Origin: Gemmatimonadaceae bacterium
GTDB lineage: Bacteria > Gemmatimonadota > Gemmatimonadetes > Gemmatimonadales > Gemmatimonadaceae
Assembly: GCA_025362035.1 (NCBI GenBank)
Contig: JANYIN010000074.1
Span: forward strand, 104,238 to 168,237
Reading direction: 5' to 3'
Length of the DNA stretch: 64,000 nucleotides
Under the pieces are notes generated by a model, which searched no databases, was not told the DNA's origin, and worked only from the letters and a program-made list of their open reading frames with translations. The position numbers and the translations under genes are program-made. Shown piece after piece: positions 47,793 to 52,777 of this stretch (positions are counted from its first letter, which is position 1; each line of letters starts with the position of its first letter).

Positions 47793-49109
47793 ATGTCGTT
47801 TTTCTCGCTTGTGGCGCCGATTCAGGCGCGCTCGGCCCCATCGGTGCGCCGGCGCTTCGTCAGCCGCGCCGCGTTCACGGGCCTGGCGGTCGTCGGCGTG
47901 TACTGGTTCGCCGCACGACTGCTGATCCCGCCCGGTCCGGGGGTGGATACCGCCGTCGGGTTGGGCGTCGCCGCCCTTGTCGCGGTGGTGTCCGCCATCA
48001 TTGCGGGAGCGGAGCGGTACCTGAACACAACGGTTTCGATCCCAGCCACGGAACTCGCCGAAGCCGCCGAAGGGGTGGCGGCGGGAGACTTCACCATCCA
48101 GCTTCGCCATGTCTCGTCCGACGATGAAATCGGGCGTCTCGGACGCGCCGTCGGGGCAATGATCCTCGAGTTGCGCCGCCTCGCCGAGGCGATCGCCACC
48201 TCGGCGCTCGAGACGAATGCCATGTCGTCGGAAATCACGGTCAGCTCCGAACAGATGGCGTCCACGGCCGGCGAGATCGCCAATACGGCCAGCGACCTGT
48301 CCGGGCAGGCGACCTCGATGGCCGAAACGATCGCGACGCTCGCGGGTTCGGCATCAGCGCTGCAGATGCTCGCGTTCAACCTGGATGACGGGGCCCGCGA
48401 AGGGGTGGCCCGCAACAGCGCGTTGCGCACGCTCGCGAGGGAGAATCGCGCCGGGCTGGACGCAAGCGCCGAGTCGCTGGTGACGCTTGCCGGGGACGTG
48501 AACGAGAGTGCGGCCGCGATCGTGGCGCTCGGCGAGGCAAGTGAAGAAGTCCGGTCGTTCGTCACTCTCGTGCGCAAGCTCGCACGCCAGTCCAAGTTGC
48601 TGGCGCTCAACGCGGCCATGGAGGCTGCCCGTGCGGGCGCACAGGGCGCCGGGTTCGCCGTGGTCGCGGGAGAGGTACGACGGCTCGCGGCGATGTCGTC
48701 GGACGCCGCCGACCACACCGAGTCCATCGTGAACAGCGTACTGAAAGGCATTTCCCATTCGCGCGAATCTTCGGAGCGTGCGGTGATCACGGCAGAGCAC
48801 GTCCGGTTGGCCACGGCGCGAGCGACCGAATCCTTCACCGAGATCGAGCGAGCCGTAGCCGACGCGGAAGCGTGGACGACCGTCATCGAGCGCGCGTCCG
48901 CCGAGACGGGAGCGCTCGTGGGAGAAATGTCGGAACGCCTGGGGGTGCTGGCCGGCGGCACCGAGTCGTTCGCGGCAGCGATGCAGCAGGTGGCGGCGTC
49001 GAGTCAGGAGCAGAGCGCGAGCACGCAGGAGATCGCCGGATCGGCCAATGCGCTCGGCGCCGCTTCGGAACGACTATCGAAGCTGGTTGGTGGCATGAAG
49101 CATTCGTGA
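47793..49109 (+). CDS. Methyl-accepting chemotaxis protein without an obvious sensor domain
   Basis: Two TM helices, HAMP-like ELAEAAEGVAAGDFTIQLRHVSSDDEIGRLGRAVGAM, signalling tip KLLALNAAMEAARAGAQGAGFAVVAGEVRRLA. Confidence 0.9.
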   Translation: MSFFSLVAPIQARSAPSVRRRFVSRAAFTGLAVVGVYWFAARLLIPPGPGVDTAVGLGVAALVAVVSAIIAGAERYLNTTVSIPATELAEAAEGVAAGDFTIQLRHVSSDDEIGRLGRAVGAMILELRRLAEAIATSALETNAMSSEITVSSEQMASTAGEIANTASDLSGQATSMAETIATLAGSASALQMLAFNLDDGAREGVARNSALRTLARENRAGLDASAESLVTLAGDVNESAAAIVALGEASEEVRSFVTLVRKLARQSKLLALNAAMEAARAGAQGAGFAVVAGEVRRLAAMSSDAADHTESIVNSVLKGISHSRESSERAVITAEHVRLATARATESFTEIERAVADAEAWTTVIERASAETGALVGEMSERLGVLAGGTESFAAAMQQVAASSQEQSASTQEIAGSANALGAASERLSKLVGGMKHS

Positions 49110-49340
49110 GGGCGCGCTTCGGCGCTGCGCGCCTCGCTTTTCAGCCCGCTTCGGCGCTCCGCCCCTCGCTTTTCAGCCCGGCCGCTGACGCGGCCTCTTC
49201 GGCCAACGTTGAGCGGTTAACGTCGGCGCCGAAGAGCGAGGCGGCGCAGCCGCCGATGCGGGCCGAATAGCCGAAGAGCGAGCCGCGCAGCGGCGAGCGG
49301 GCCGAAGAGCGTTGGCGCGTCAGCGCCGACGCGCGCCGTG
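49110..49340. repeat. Structured repeat array A (inverted halves)
   Basis: Units such as gccgaagagcgaGCCGCgcaGCGGCgagcgg on + and their reverse complement (cgcttttcagcccg) on the left half; 49252-49302 matches 50736-50786 at 50/51. Confidence 0.85.
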
Positions 49341-49345
49341 CGTGC

Positions 49346-50554
49346 TCACTCCTTCGGTATCGACATCGTGCCCGAGATTGGCTTCCCCTTGGGGCGGTCG
49401 TCGCGCTTGTAGAGAAACGCCGACGGGATGCGTCGAGCCCCCTGCGCGTCGCAGACGACATAGCTGCTGCCCTCGTACGCGCAGGCGCCGGCGAAATCGC
49501 CCTTCTTGTTGATCGCGTAGAAGTTGAGATCGAAGTACGGGCGCCCGTTGTCGTCGAGCAGGCGTTTCTCCGTCATGGCGATCGTGCGCTCCATGACCTT
49601 CATGAGCGCCGCCTCCGGCGTCATGCCCATGCGCATGAACTCGACGGCCAGGAATGCGCCGCAGACCTTGATGTTGGCCTCGCCGCGCCCAGTCGATCCC
49701 GCCGCGCCGACGGTATTATCGCAATACTGTCCGGCGCCGATGATCGGACTGTCTCCCACGCGGCCGGGCACCTTCCACGACAGTCCGCTGGTGGTCGTGA
49801 CGGATGCGATGTCACCGCTGGCCGTGACGGCATTCATGTTGATGGTGCCATAGGTGTGCGGCACGCCGTGCTCATCGTGGAAGACGTGCGTTCCGTTGTC
49901 CTCGCCATGGCGAAATGCCGGCGCCCGCATCGAGGTTCGCGGCGGCCGCGTTGGTGTGGCGATGCGGACGTCGCCGTGATAGTCGAGATACGGATCGTCG
50001 GCATTCAGGTTGGCACGCCAGCGAAGCCAGTCCTGACGGCTCTTATCGGTCAGCAGGTTCTGCGGCGTGAACCCCATCTCGATGGCGAACTTCCTGGCGC
50101 CGGCTCCCACCAGCATGATGTGGTCGGTGTAGTCCATCACCGCCTTCGCGACCAGGGACGGCGTGGCGATGTCCTCCAGCGCCGCAACGGCGCCGGCGCG
50201 CTTGGTTGGCCCGTGCATGACACTCGCGTCGAGCTGCACCACGCCGTCTGCATTTGGCAGCCCGCCCAATCCGACCGACTGGTCCGTGGGATCGAGCTCC
50301 TGGATGTTCACCCCGGCTATGGCGGCATCGAGCGGGTCGGCGTTCTGCTGCGTCATCAGGTCGTAGGCGACCTTGGCTCCGCGAATGCCGTTATCGCTCG
50401 TCACGATGGCCGGACGGCCAGCAAAGGCGGCTGACGGCGGCGTCGCGCGATCCACCACACGGATGAACGGCATGCCGTCAGCGCGGCGCGGCAGGATGAG
50501 TCCGGCGGCGGTGACGGCGCCGGCGCCAAGGAAGTCGCGGCGAGAAATGGGCAT
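49346..50554 (-). CDS. Isoaspartyl peptidase/asparaginase family (glycosylasparaginase-like), Tat signal
   Basis: MPISRRDFLGAGAVTAAGLILPRR Tat-like signal; TYGTINMNAVTASGDIASVTTTSGLSWKVPGRVGDSPIIGAGQYCDNTVGAAGSTGRGE (Ntn-hydrolase Thr region). Confidence 0.9.
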   Translation of the reverse strand: MPISRRDFLGAGAVTAAGLILPRRADGMPFIRVVDRATPPSAAFAGRPAIVTSDNGIRGAKVAYDLMTQQNADPLDAAIAGVNIQELDPTDQSVGLGGLPNADGVVQLDASVMHGPTKRAGAVAALEDIATPSLVAKAVMDYTDHIMLVGAGARKFAIEMGFTPQNLLTDKSRQDWLRWRANLNADDPYLDYHGDVRIATPTRPPRTSMRAPAFRHGEDNGTHVFHDEHGVPHTYGTINMNAVTASGDIASVTTTSGLSWKVPGRVGDSPIIGAGQYCDNTVGAAGSTGRGEANIKVCGAFLAVEFMRMGMTPEAALMKVMERTIAMTEKRLLDDNGRPYFDLNFYAINKKGDFAGACAYEGSSYVVCDAQGARRIPSAFLYKRDDRPKGKPISGTMSIPKE

Positions 50555-50629
50555 TGAAGTAGGCTGCTGGAGGTGTAAGGAGTTGGCTAATTACGGTTGT
50601 GCGCGGGTAATGCGCCAGAAGCGCGGGGC

Positions 50630-50855
50630 CTGACGGCTCTTGAGCCCGCTCGCCGCCGCGCGGCTCGCTTTTCGGCCCGGCCGCTGCCGCGGCCTCTTCA
50701 GCCAAACGCAGTCGCTGAAAAGCGAGGCGCGGAGCGCCGATGCGGGCCGAATAGCCGAAGAGCGAGCCGCGGAGCGGCGAGCGGGCTGAAAAGCGCGAGC
50801 AAGCCGCGAAGCGGCGGGGCGAGCCGCCGCGCAGCGGCGAGCGCGCCGAATAGCT
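50630..50855. repeat. Structured repeat array B (inverted halves)
   Basis: Same unit family as array A: gctgaaaagcgagGCGCggaGCGCcgatgcgg, gccgaatagccgaagagcgaGCCGCggaGCGGCgagcgg; left half ctcgcttttcggcccg is in opposite orientation. Confidence 0.85.
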
Positions 50856-50869
50856 AGTAGTATTTCCCC

Positions 50870-52777
50870 ATGACATCTACCGCCACCACCGCCACACGCG
50901 ACGAACTTCGCTCCCTCAGCTTTCTCGAGGGCCTGACCGACACCGCGGTCCATCAACTCGCGCGGCTCGTTCAGGCCGTCGAGTACGACGTGGACGCTCT
51001 GCTCTTCGAGGAAGGAGGGCCCCGAAACTTGCTCGCGCTCATCGTGTCCGGCGCCGTAGCCATCGAAAAGGGCAAGACCGCCGCCCACCCGGTGCGGCTC
51101 GCCACCTTTGGCGCCGGCCAGGCGGTGGGGGAAGGACTGCTGCTCGACGACTCGAACCACGGCACCACCGCCCGCGCCCTGGTGAAGACCCGCGCTTTCG
51201 TCCTCACGCTCAGCCAGGTGCAGGACATGCTCAAGGAGACGCCGACCCTGTACGCGGCGCTCGTGGCGCGCGCTGGCCGGTCGATCAAGCAGCGCCTCTC
51301 CGTGGTGGACGCCACGCTGGTCGGGCGCGGCCGTGCCCTTGGCTTTGGTGGCAGCCGGACCCGCAAGGAGCGTGACCTCCTCGGCGAGCGCGATGTACCC
51401 GACGACGCGTTGTACGGCATCCAGACGCTGCGCGCGATGGAGAACTTCGCGATCACCGGCATTCCGCTCCGCGAATTCCCGGCGCTCATCGAGGCGCTCG
51501 CCGCGGTAAAGGAGGCGGCGGCGCTGTCGAATGCGGAACTGGGGCTGCTGCCAGCCGAGGTCTCCGATGTCATTGTTCGGGCGGCGGCGGAGATCCGGTC
51601 GGGCCGACATCACGAGCATTTCATGGTGGACATGATTCAGGGTGGCGCGGGCACCTCCACCAACATGAACGCCAATGAAGTGATCGCCAATCGAGCGCTC
51701 GAGCTCTCGAACCAGGCGCGGGGCGACTACACGTTCGTCCATCCAAACAACCACGTGAACCTCAGCCAATCCACCAACGACGTGTATCCCACGGCGGTGA
51801 AGATTGCCCTGCACACCGCCATCGAGCAGCTCCGCACCGCCATGCGCGAGCTCGCGAACGCGTTCCTGGCCAAGGGCACGGAGTTCGCGCCATTCATCAA
51901 GATGGGCCGCACGCAGCTGCAGGACGCCGTGCCCATGACGCTGGGACAGGAGTTCACCGCATTCGGCCACACGATGCTGGAAGACGTCGATCGCCTCGGT
52001 GAGGCACAGGCGCTCATTCGCGAGATCAACATGGGTGCGACCGCGATCGGCACTGGCATCAACGCCCCGCGCGGCTACGCCGAGGCGGTGCGCGCGCATC
52101 TCTCCCGGATCACCGGCCTGTCGCTGATCACCGCCTTCGACCTGGTCGAAGCCACGTCCGACACCGGCGCGTTCGTGCAGCTCAGCGGCGTGCTGAAACG
52201 ATGCGCCGTGAAGCTCTCCAAGATCTGCAACGACCTCCGGCTGCTCAGCTCCGGTCCGCGCGCTGGCTTCGGCGAGATCAATCTGCCGGCTATGCAGCCG
52301 GGCTCGTCGATCATGCCCGGCAAGGTGAACCCGGTCATCCCCGAGGTGGTGAATCAGGTCTGCTTCGACGTCATCGGCGGCGACATGACCGTCACCATGG
52401 CGGCCGAGGCCGGGCAGCTGCAGCTCAACGTGTTCGAACCCGTCATTGCATTCCGGCTGCTGGCGGGGCTGGGCGCGATGACCAATGCGTGCTCGGTGCT
52501 GCGGGAGCGATGCGTAAATGGGATCACGGCCAACCCCGATCGCATGCGCCAGTTCGTCGAGCAGTCGATCGGCATCGTCACGGCGCTCGTGCCGGTCATT
52601 GGCTACGAGGTCAGCACGGAGATCGCGCGCGAGGCACTCGCGACTGGGCGCGGCGTGTACGACCTCGTGATGGAGCGCGGGCTGCTCACGCGCGCGCAAC
52701 TCGACCACGCGCTCGATCCGCAAGCGATGCTTCGATCGATGACCCCGCCGCTCGGGACGCCGCTGCAGCAGGAGTAG
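50870..52777 (+). CDS. aspA: Aspartate ammonia-lyase with N-terminal cyclic-nucleotide-binding-like domain
   Basis: cNBD-like LRSLSFLEGLTDTAVHQLARLVQAVEYDVDALLFEEGG...GAGQAVGEGLLL; lyase motifs GERDVPDDALYGIQTLRAMENF, GAGTSTNMNANEVIANRA, STNDVYPTAVKIAL, GSSIMPGKVNPVIPE. Confidence 0.92.
   Translation: MTSTATTATRDELRSLSFLEGLTDTAVHQLARLVQAVEYDVDALLFEEGGPRNLLALIVSGAVAIEKGKTAAHPVRLATFGAGQAVGEGLLLDDSNHGTTARALVKTRAFVLTLSQVQDMLKETPTLYAALVARAGRSIKQRLSVVDATLVGRGRALGFGGSRTRKERDLLGERDVPDDALYGIQTLRAMENFAITGIPLREFPALIEALAAVKEAAALSNAELGLLPAEVSDVIVRAAAEIRSGRHHEHFMVDMIQGGAGTSTNMNANEVIANRALELSNQARGDYTFVHPNNHVNLSQSTNDVYPTAVKIALHTAIEQLRTAMRELANAFLAKGTEFAPFIKMGRTQLQDAVPMTLGQEFTAFGHTMLEDVDRLGEAQALIREINMGATAIGTGINAPRGYAEAVRAHLSRITGLSLITAFDLVEATSDTGAFVQLSGVLKRCAVKLSKICNDLRLLSSGPRAGFGEINLPAMQPGSSIMPGKVNPVIPEVVNQVCFDVIGGDMTVTMAAEAGQLQLNVFEPVIAFRLLAGLGAMTNACSVLRERCVNGITANPDRMRQFVEQSIGIVTALVPVIGYEVSTEIAREALATGRGVYDLVMERGLLTRAQLDHALDPQAMLRSMTPPLGTPLQQE

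Follow-up and report, generated by a model that had tools for sequence, protein, structure and literature searches.

The question raised by this locus is whether the array of short palindromic repeats between a divergently transcribed asparaginase and aspartase serves these genes as a regulatory element or landed there as one member of a dispersed family. The locus lies in a window, meaning the whole 64,000-nucleotide stretch that was analysed, of the metagenome-assembled genome of a soil bacterium of the Gemmatimonadaceae, 4.64 Mb in 212 contigs (G000 hereafter). The minus-strand gene (49346-50554) encodes an isoaspartyl peptidase/asparaginase (Asparaginase_2) and the plus-strand gene (50870-52777) a cNMP-binding domain fused to aspartase/fumarase (Lyase_1, FumaraseC_C). 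A sequence-only reading had described the array, called B, as the second copy of a neighbouring array A, filling the divergent region and possibly forming part of the promoter or 5' UTR of either gene. We suggest that B probably belongs to a species-specific, non-autonomous family of BIME-like palindromic repeats, in which a strand-specific hairpin is conserved and the linker turns over.

Array B occupies positions 50636-50854 on the plus strand, and each of its units consists of the linker GC[C/T]GAA[A/G/T]AGC (GCYGAADAGC) and then a short, mostly perfect palindrome. The array runs from an inverted unit through a central GGCCGC hairpin and an apex into forward units. The inverted, minus-strand part contains the hairpin GCCGC-CGC-GCGGC (50652-50664), whose loop reads GCG in linker orientation and is an exception to the GNA rule described below, and the linker GCTTTTCGGC (50667-50676). 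The central hairpin GGCCGC-TGCC-GCGGCC (50679-50694), also assigned to the minus strand, where its loop is GGCA, is followed by the strandless apex of the inversion, TCTTCAGCCAAACGCAGTC (50695-50713). The plus-strand units then comprise the linker GCTGAAAAGC (50714-50723), the hairpin GGCGC-GGA-GCGCC (50726-50738), the double linker GCCGAATAGCCGAAGAGC (50746-50763), the hairpin GCCGC-GGA-GCGGC (50766-50778), a second GCTGAAAAGC (50785-50794), the hairpins GCCGC-GAA-GCGGC (50803-50815) and GCCGC-GCA-GCGGC (50826-50838), and the last linker GCCGAATAGC (50845-50854). The inverted arms (50636-50676 and 50754-50794) are complementary at 88%. The B strand folded better than 200 of 200 dinucleotide shuffles, with z scores of -6.0 as DNA and -7.2 as RNA, statistics that do not tell a DNA role from an RNA role. 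The array was therefore real, as first described, and the gene calls (asparaginase start at 50554, minus; aspartase start at 50870, plus) and the end of the last linker at 50854, 15 nt before the aspartase ATG, were correct. Its position in the divergent region also held, but it does not fill that region completely, because it leaves 81 bp next to the asparaginase (50555-50635) and 15 bp next to the aspartase free.

The sequence of B recurs throughout the genome. BLAST of B against G000 gave 60 matches, and the linker-spacer-linker pattern occurred 82 times compared to 0 for a reversed-pattern control. At least 25 arrays in the genome have more than one linker, including B and array A (49110-49338, plus strand), which lies at the convergent 3' ends of an MCP-type gene and the asparaginase; this number of arrays is a lower bound because some matches (contigs C61 and C63) were left unread. 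Each array carries 2-9 linkers, periodic and head-to-tail within each half, and the order inverted, centre, forward is frequent. Among the 25 arrays, eight lie in tandem spacers, five in convergent and four in divergent ones, seven at contig edges and one at an edge with an ORF overlap; 24 are non-coding, and the 25th is the contig-edge array under a probably spurious ORF. The flanking genes, called with a simple codon-usage caller, share nothing obvious (gyrase A-type, EF-P, ribosomal protein L5, Obg, 2-oxoglutarate dehydrogenase and others). They are ordinary housekeeping and metabolic genes, and no transposase was found among those adjoining the arrays. Contig-end arrays were noted at L041, L043, L044, L045, L047, L048, L051 and L053; arrays at several contig ends probably break the assembly, and the real copy number is then higher. 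The G000 arrays are thus a family of short, multicopy, extragenic palindromes, as in REP sequences, and they form mosaics of linkers and oppositely oriented palindromes, as in BIMEs.

The relation of B to A was judged in this setting. The segment 50736-50786 indeed matches 49252-49302 of A at 50 of 51 positions, and the two arrays belong to the same family. However, they are only two of at least 25 arrays, and the same 51-nt segment is found with 2 mismatches at L052, 3 at L048 and 4 at both L032 and L051. It is therefore a common module pair rather than a piece of A copied into B, and a special duplication or gene conversion between A and B was ruled out.

What the units have in common lies less in their stems than in their loops. 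Stem variants include GGCGC/GCGCC, GCCGC/GCGGC, GCTGC/GCAGC, GTGCC/GGCAC and GGCCGC/GCGGCC, and stem chimaeras such as GAGCCGC-GCA-GCGCC occur. The stems covary: 94.7% of the cells were paired, and the score of 0.260, compared to 0.132 after shuffling, was reached by none of 500 shuffles (slid controls, at most 0.056). The closing pair was C-G in 96 of 99 hairpins. In linker orientation, GN(N)A loops were present in 39 of 61 distinct hairpins versus 40 of 559 control hairpins from the same loci (Fisher 2e-24), and TN(N)C loops in 5 of 61 versus 47 of 559. Fisher values on distinct hairpins overstate independence here, because units within one genome share ancestry and the copies are not independent. 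At other Gemmatimonadaceae loci, GNA-type loops made up 12-17% of hairpins with stems of 5-6, both orientations summed. According to PMC4686876, which cites Hirao, Yoshizawa and colleagues, DNA mini-hairpins with a GNA or GNNA loop and G-C pairs are extraordinarily stable and nuclease-resistant. By sequence, the array hairpins belong to this type, with two or more G-C pairs closing the loop. The four-base loops in G000 mostly have a pyrimidine at the third base (GNYA: GTCA, GCCA, GGCA, GCTA, GGTA, GTTA), unlike the RNA GNRA loop, which favours a DNA role without proving it. Because such loops are stable and the four-base ones are mostly GNYA, the conserved property would be a hairpin of single-stranded DNA.

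The linker behaved differently from the hairpin. A search of 98 other genomes with the G000 linker pair yielded just 8 scattered matches; these fell in 7 genomes, all outside the genus. None of 394 other genomes of the phylum contained a stricter pattern. The hairpin body GCGAGGCGCGNAGCGCCGATGCGGG was present in congeners (5 in G001, 2 in G006 and 5 in G007; controls there, 0), joined to the linker CC[A/G]TAAGC in G006 and to one ending in CCGTCMAGCGAG in G007 and G001. The G006 linker pair was found 12 times in G006 and not at all in 40 other genomes; the G007 linker occurred in G007 (34 times), G001 (6) and G000 (3), and 0-1 times elsewhere, with controls reaching 5. The loop rule was strong in G006 (27 of 38 distinct hairpins; controls, 4 of 89; Fisher 8e-15) and weak or missing at the loci read in G007 (7 of 22) and G001 (0 of 3). 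G006 has kept hairpin bodies and loop rule alike, with a different linker.

Comparison of orthologous sites bears directly on the role of B. The spacer between asparaginase and aspartase is 315 bp in G000 versus 116 bp in G007 and 108 bp in G004, and both congeners are free of the array. The sequence-only reading had itself named an array that was a variable insertion absent from close relatives as evidence against a promoter or 5' UTR role, and this is what was found: B is missing from the orthologous spacer of G007 and G004, and is therefore a variable occupant of it. Likewise, the spacer between the MCP-type gene and the asparaginase, which holds array A and is 236 bp long in G000, measures about 26 bp in G004. 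At two further sites, both in L035, the array was missing in the congeners examined (G004, G006 and G007 at site 2). Clean insertion was not the pattern here. At site 1 the array occupies the place of a gene present in three congeners, and at site 2 the spacer sequence of ancestral type was lost, with the array in its stead; such replacement of local sequence is not predicted by transposition alone. By eye, no target-site duplication was seen at the arrays despite their overall inverted symmetry, and the boundaries in L035 replace local sequence. In the comparison of L035 3009-3217 with L219, L222 and L221, the gene at the array's place between the same neighbours looked cytochrome-c-like by eye.

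The spacers around these genes also hold other repeats. Those orthologous to A and B in G006 (L078 3410-3620 and L057 3370-3570) contain inverted repeats of the GTCATCCCG...CGGGATGAC and GGCTGCAGCC types. Further types (CTAGCC-rich, GTCATCCTGAGC...GGGATGACA, TTGTCAGTTGTC and GGGGTCAGAC...GTCTGACCCC) are present in the same or adjacent spacers of other relatives (L084, L063, L083 and L090). The MCP-asparaginase-aspartase region looks as if it were a recurrent landing place for repeats. The gene content of the region appears to vary too: in G004, G006 and several outgroups the MCP-type gene and the aspartase flank an asparaginase gene, which was not detected in that place in G009, G002, G003, G008 and G005 (L075, L077, L079, L133 and L090).

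The position of B in a divergent spacer and its end 15 nt before an ATG would suit a role dedicated to the asparaginase, the aspartase or both, as promoter or 5' UTR element. That B could alter expression stands; that it evolved as a dedicated element is very improbable, because the family occupies at least 25 intergenic sites, convergent 3' ends included, beside unrelated genes, the orthologous site in congeners lacks the array, and the conserved -10 box lies outside it. This box is the hexamer TAGTAT (50858-50863, plus strand), -10-like and of the leaderless type, directly after the array and 6 nt upstream of the aspartase ATG. A TANNWT motif ending 5-10 nt before the start codon was found in 30 of 55 upstream regions of aspartase orthologs, compared to 0 of 5 control windows, and it is also kept in orthologs without an array. 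With the hexamer downstream of the array and so near the ATG, B is unlikely to be an aspartase 5' UTR. A scan for sigma-70 promoters in 49000-51000 found none. A conserved -35 element is weakly supported, with TTG at that position in 7 of the 30 orthologs with TANNWT, and in the window the -35 position falls within B. We infer that the insertion of B may have displaced the ancestral upstream half of a leaderless promoter and left its -10 box, and aspartase expression may have changed as a side effect. The many intergenic copies, and the same hairpins with other linkers in sister species, suggest a spreading repeat that landed by chance in a promoter region rather than a dedicated switch.

Three other explanations concern the family as a whole. 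It is conceivable, though unlikely, that the arrays are scars of recombination or repair, made when template switching at fold-back hairpins patched local deletions. The inverted symmetry, the stem chimaeras and the replacements in L035, where a gene of the congeners at one site and the ancestral spacer at the other gave way to arrays, would all be in keeping with this process. However, dozens of unlinked sites share a fixed linker, which requires copying between loci and is beyond local repair. Somewhat less likely still is a bidirectional transcription terminator or mRNA 3'-end protector, whose inverted halves would offer each incoming transcript hairpins and then a T-rich linker (TCGCTTTTC). 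Symmetric arrays do occur in convergent spacers shortly after stop codons, and a lenient scan of 49000-51000 found 4 terminator-like sites versus 1.1 expected, three of them within A and B. But four arrays, B among them, sit in divergent regions; neither the commonest linker, GCTCTTC, nor that of G006 is a T-run; and, of the one-sided arrays, 4 have the orientation that an incoming transcript would require and 2 the opposite one. Finally, 7 to 8 of the 25 arrays lie at contig ends, as might be expected of an assembly artefact. We give this explanation the least credence, because the contig that holds A and B is 168 kb long, with both arrays in its interior, and the MCP-asparaginase-aspartase synteny is shared with G004 and G006.

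How a BIME-like family of this kind spreads is a more tentative matter. No RAYT/TnpA-REP gene (Y1_Tnp, PF01797) was found in G000, G001, G006 or G007, whose assemblies are 76-93% complete, with a control search positive in 5 of 14 known genomes. On inspection, no GTAG or CGTC tag adjoined the palindromes in the G000 linker and unit sequences; CGTC does occur in the linker of G007, yet without the stem and tail of the CGTC-REP in PMC3733652. An Rfam search returned no family match apart from one sub-threshold chance match elsewhere. Searches of phages, plasmids and viral contigs with the array gave no match, and thus no evidence for such a source. An integron attC site, suggested by the AACG/CGTT apex, was dropped by eye because the RYYYAAC/GTTRRRY pair is not conserved. 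We found nothing relevant in the literature on such repeats in Gemmatimonadota, and a literature search for the related-looking GTCATCCTGAGC-type sequences gave primer matches only. It is possible, but we would not call it probable, that the arrays represent a Gemmatimonadaceae class of single-stranded DNA mini-hairpin arrays, in which the body and the GNA/GNNA loop are heritable, the linker is swapped between sister species, and a putative enzyme other than a REP transposase spreads the units. On the preferred BIME-like reading, exposure of one strand, as in replication, would let the hairpins form, and they would be recognized strand by strand; the putative enzyme, not of the Y1 REP transposase type, would copy them into new intergenic places, and the linker would perhaps be a recognition tag that changes between species.

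Known repeats offer partial parallels. Like the G000 arrays, REP and BIME elements (PMC2817692, PMC3733652, PMC8266576) are short intergenic palindromes in many copies and opposite orientations with linkers, and include some species-specific families and strand-specific hairpins. The arrays differ in having 2-9 linkers at a head-to-tail period in each half, and stems that vary around a fixed loop type and linker, and in the missing tag and Y1 transposase. TnpA-REP enzymes bind single-stranded REP hairpins of one strand only, and loop reversal abolished binding in one case (PMC8266576), which may serve as a working analogue for recognition of the arrays. For constant modules with exchangeable partners, the best analogue is the BOX elements of Streptococcus (PMC3049150), which are modular, vary in the number of internal modules and, in S. 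suis, combine boxB modules with differing end modules, much as the G000-type hairpin body is found with differing linkers. In contrast, their sequence is unrelated, and their defined end modules and proposed IS partner (PMC3049150) were not seen in the arrays. The mini-hairpins of PMC4686876 match those of the arrays exactly in loop and G-C closing pairs, but are isolated or engineered there rather than dispersed in arrays; none of the literature searched ties GNA/GNNA mini-hairpins to a dispersed bacterial repeat family. Judging by title and abstract, palindromic repeats also form a family in an organellar genome (e.g. PMC4524435), but the genomes differ and no shared sequence is known.

For those who work with metagenome-assembled genomes, our results carry a warning that intergenic arrays can be promoter-altering insertions and assembly break points alike. 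They also suggest that a REP transposase is not needed for the spread of BIME-like repeats. Since the stems vary and the linkers change, and the loop stays GNA or GNNA on one strand, the pattern points to a structure of single-stranded DNA, and the arrays offer a clean natural system in which to ask what dispersed bacterial palindromes are selected for.
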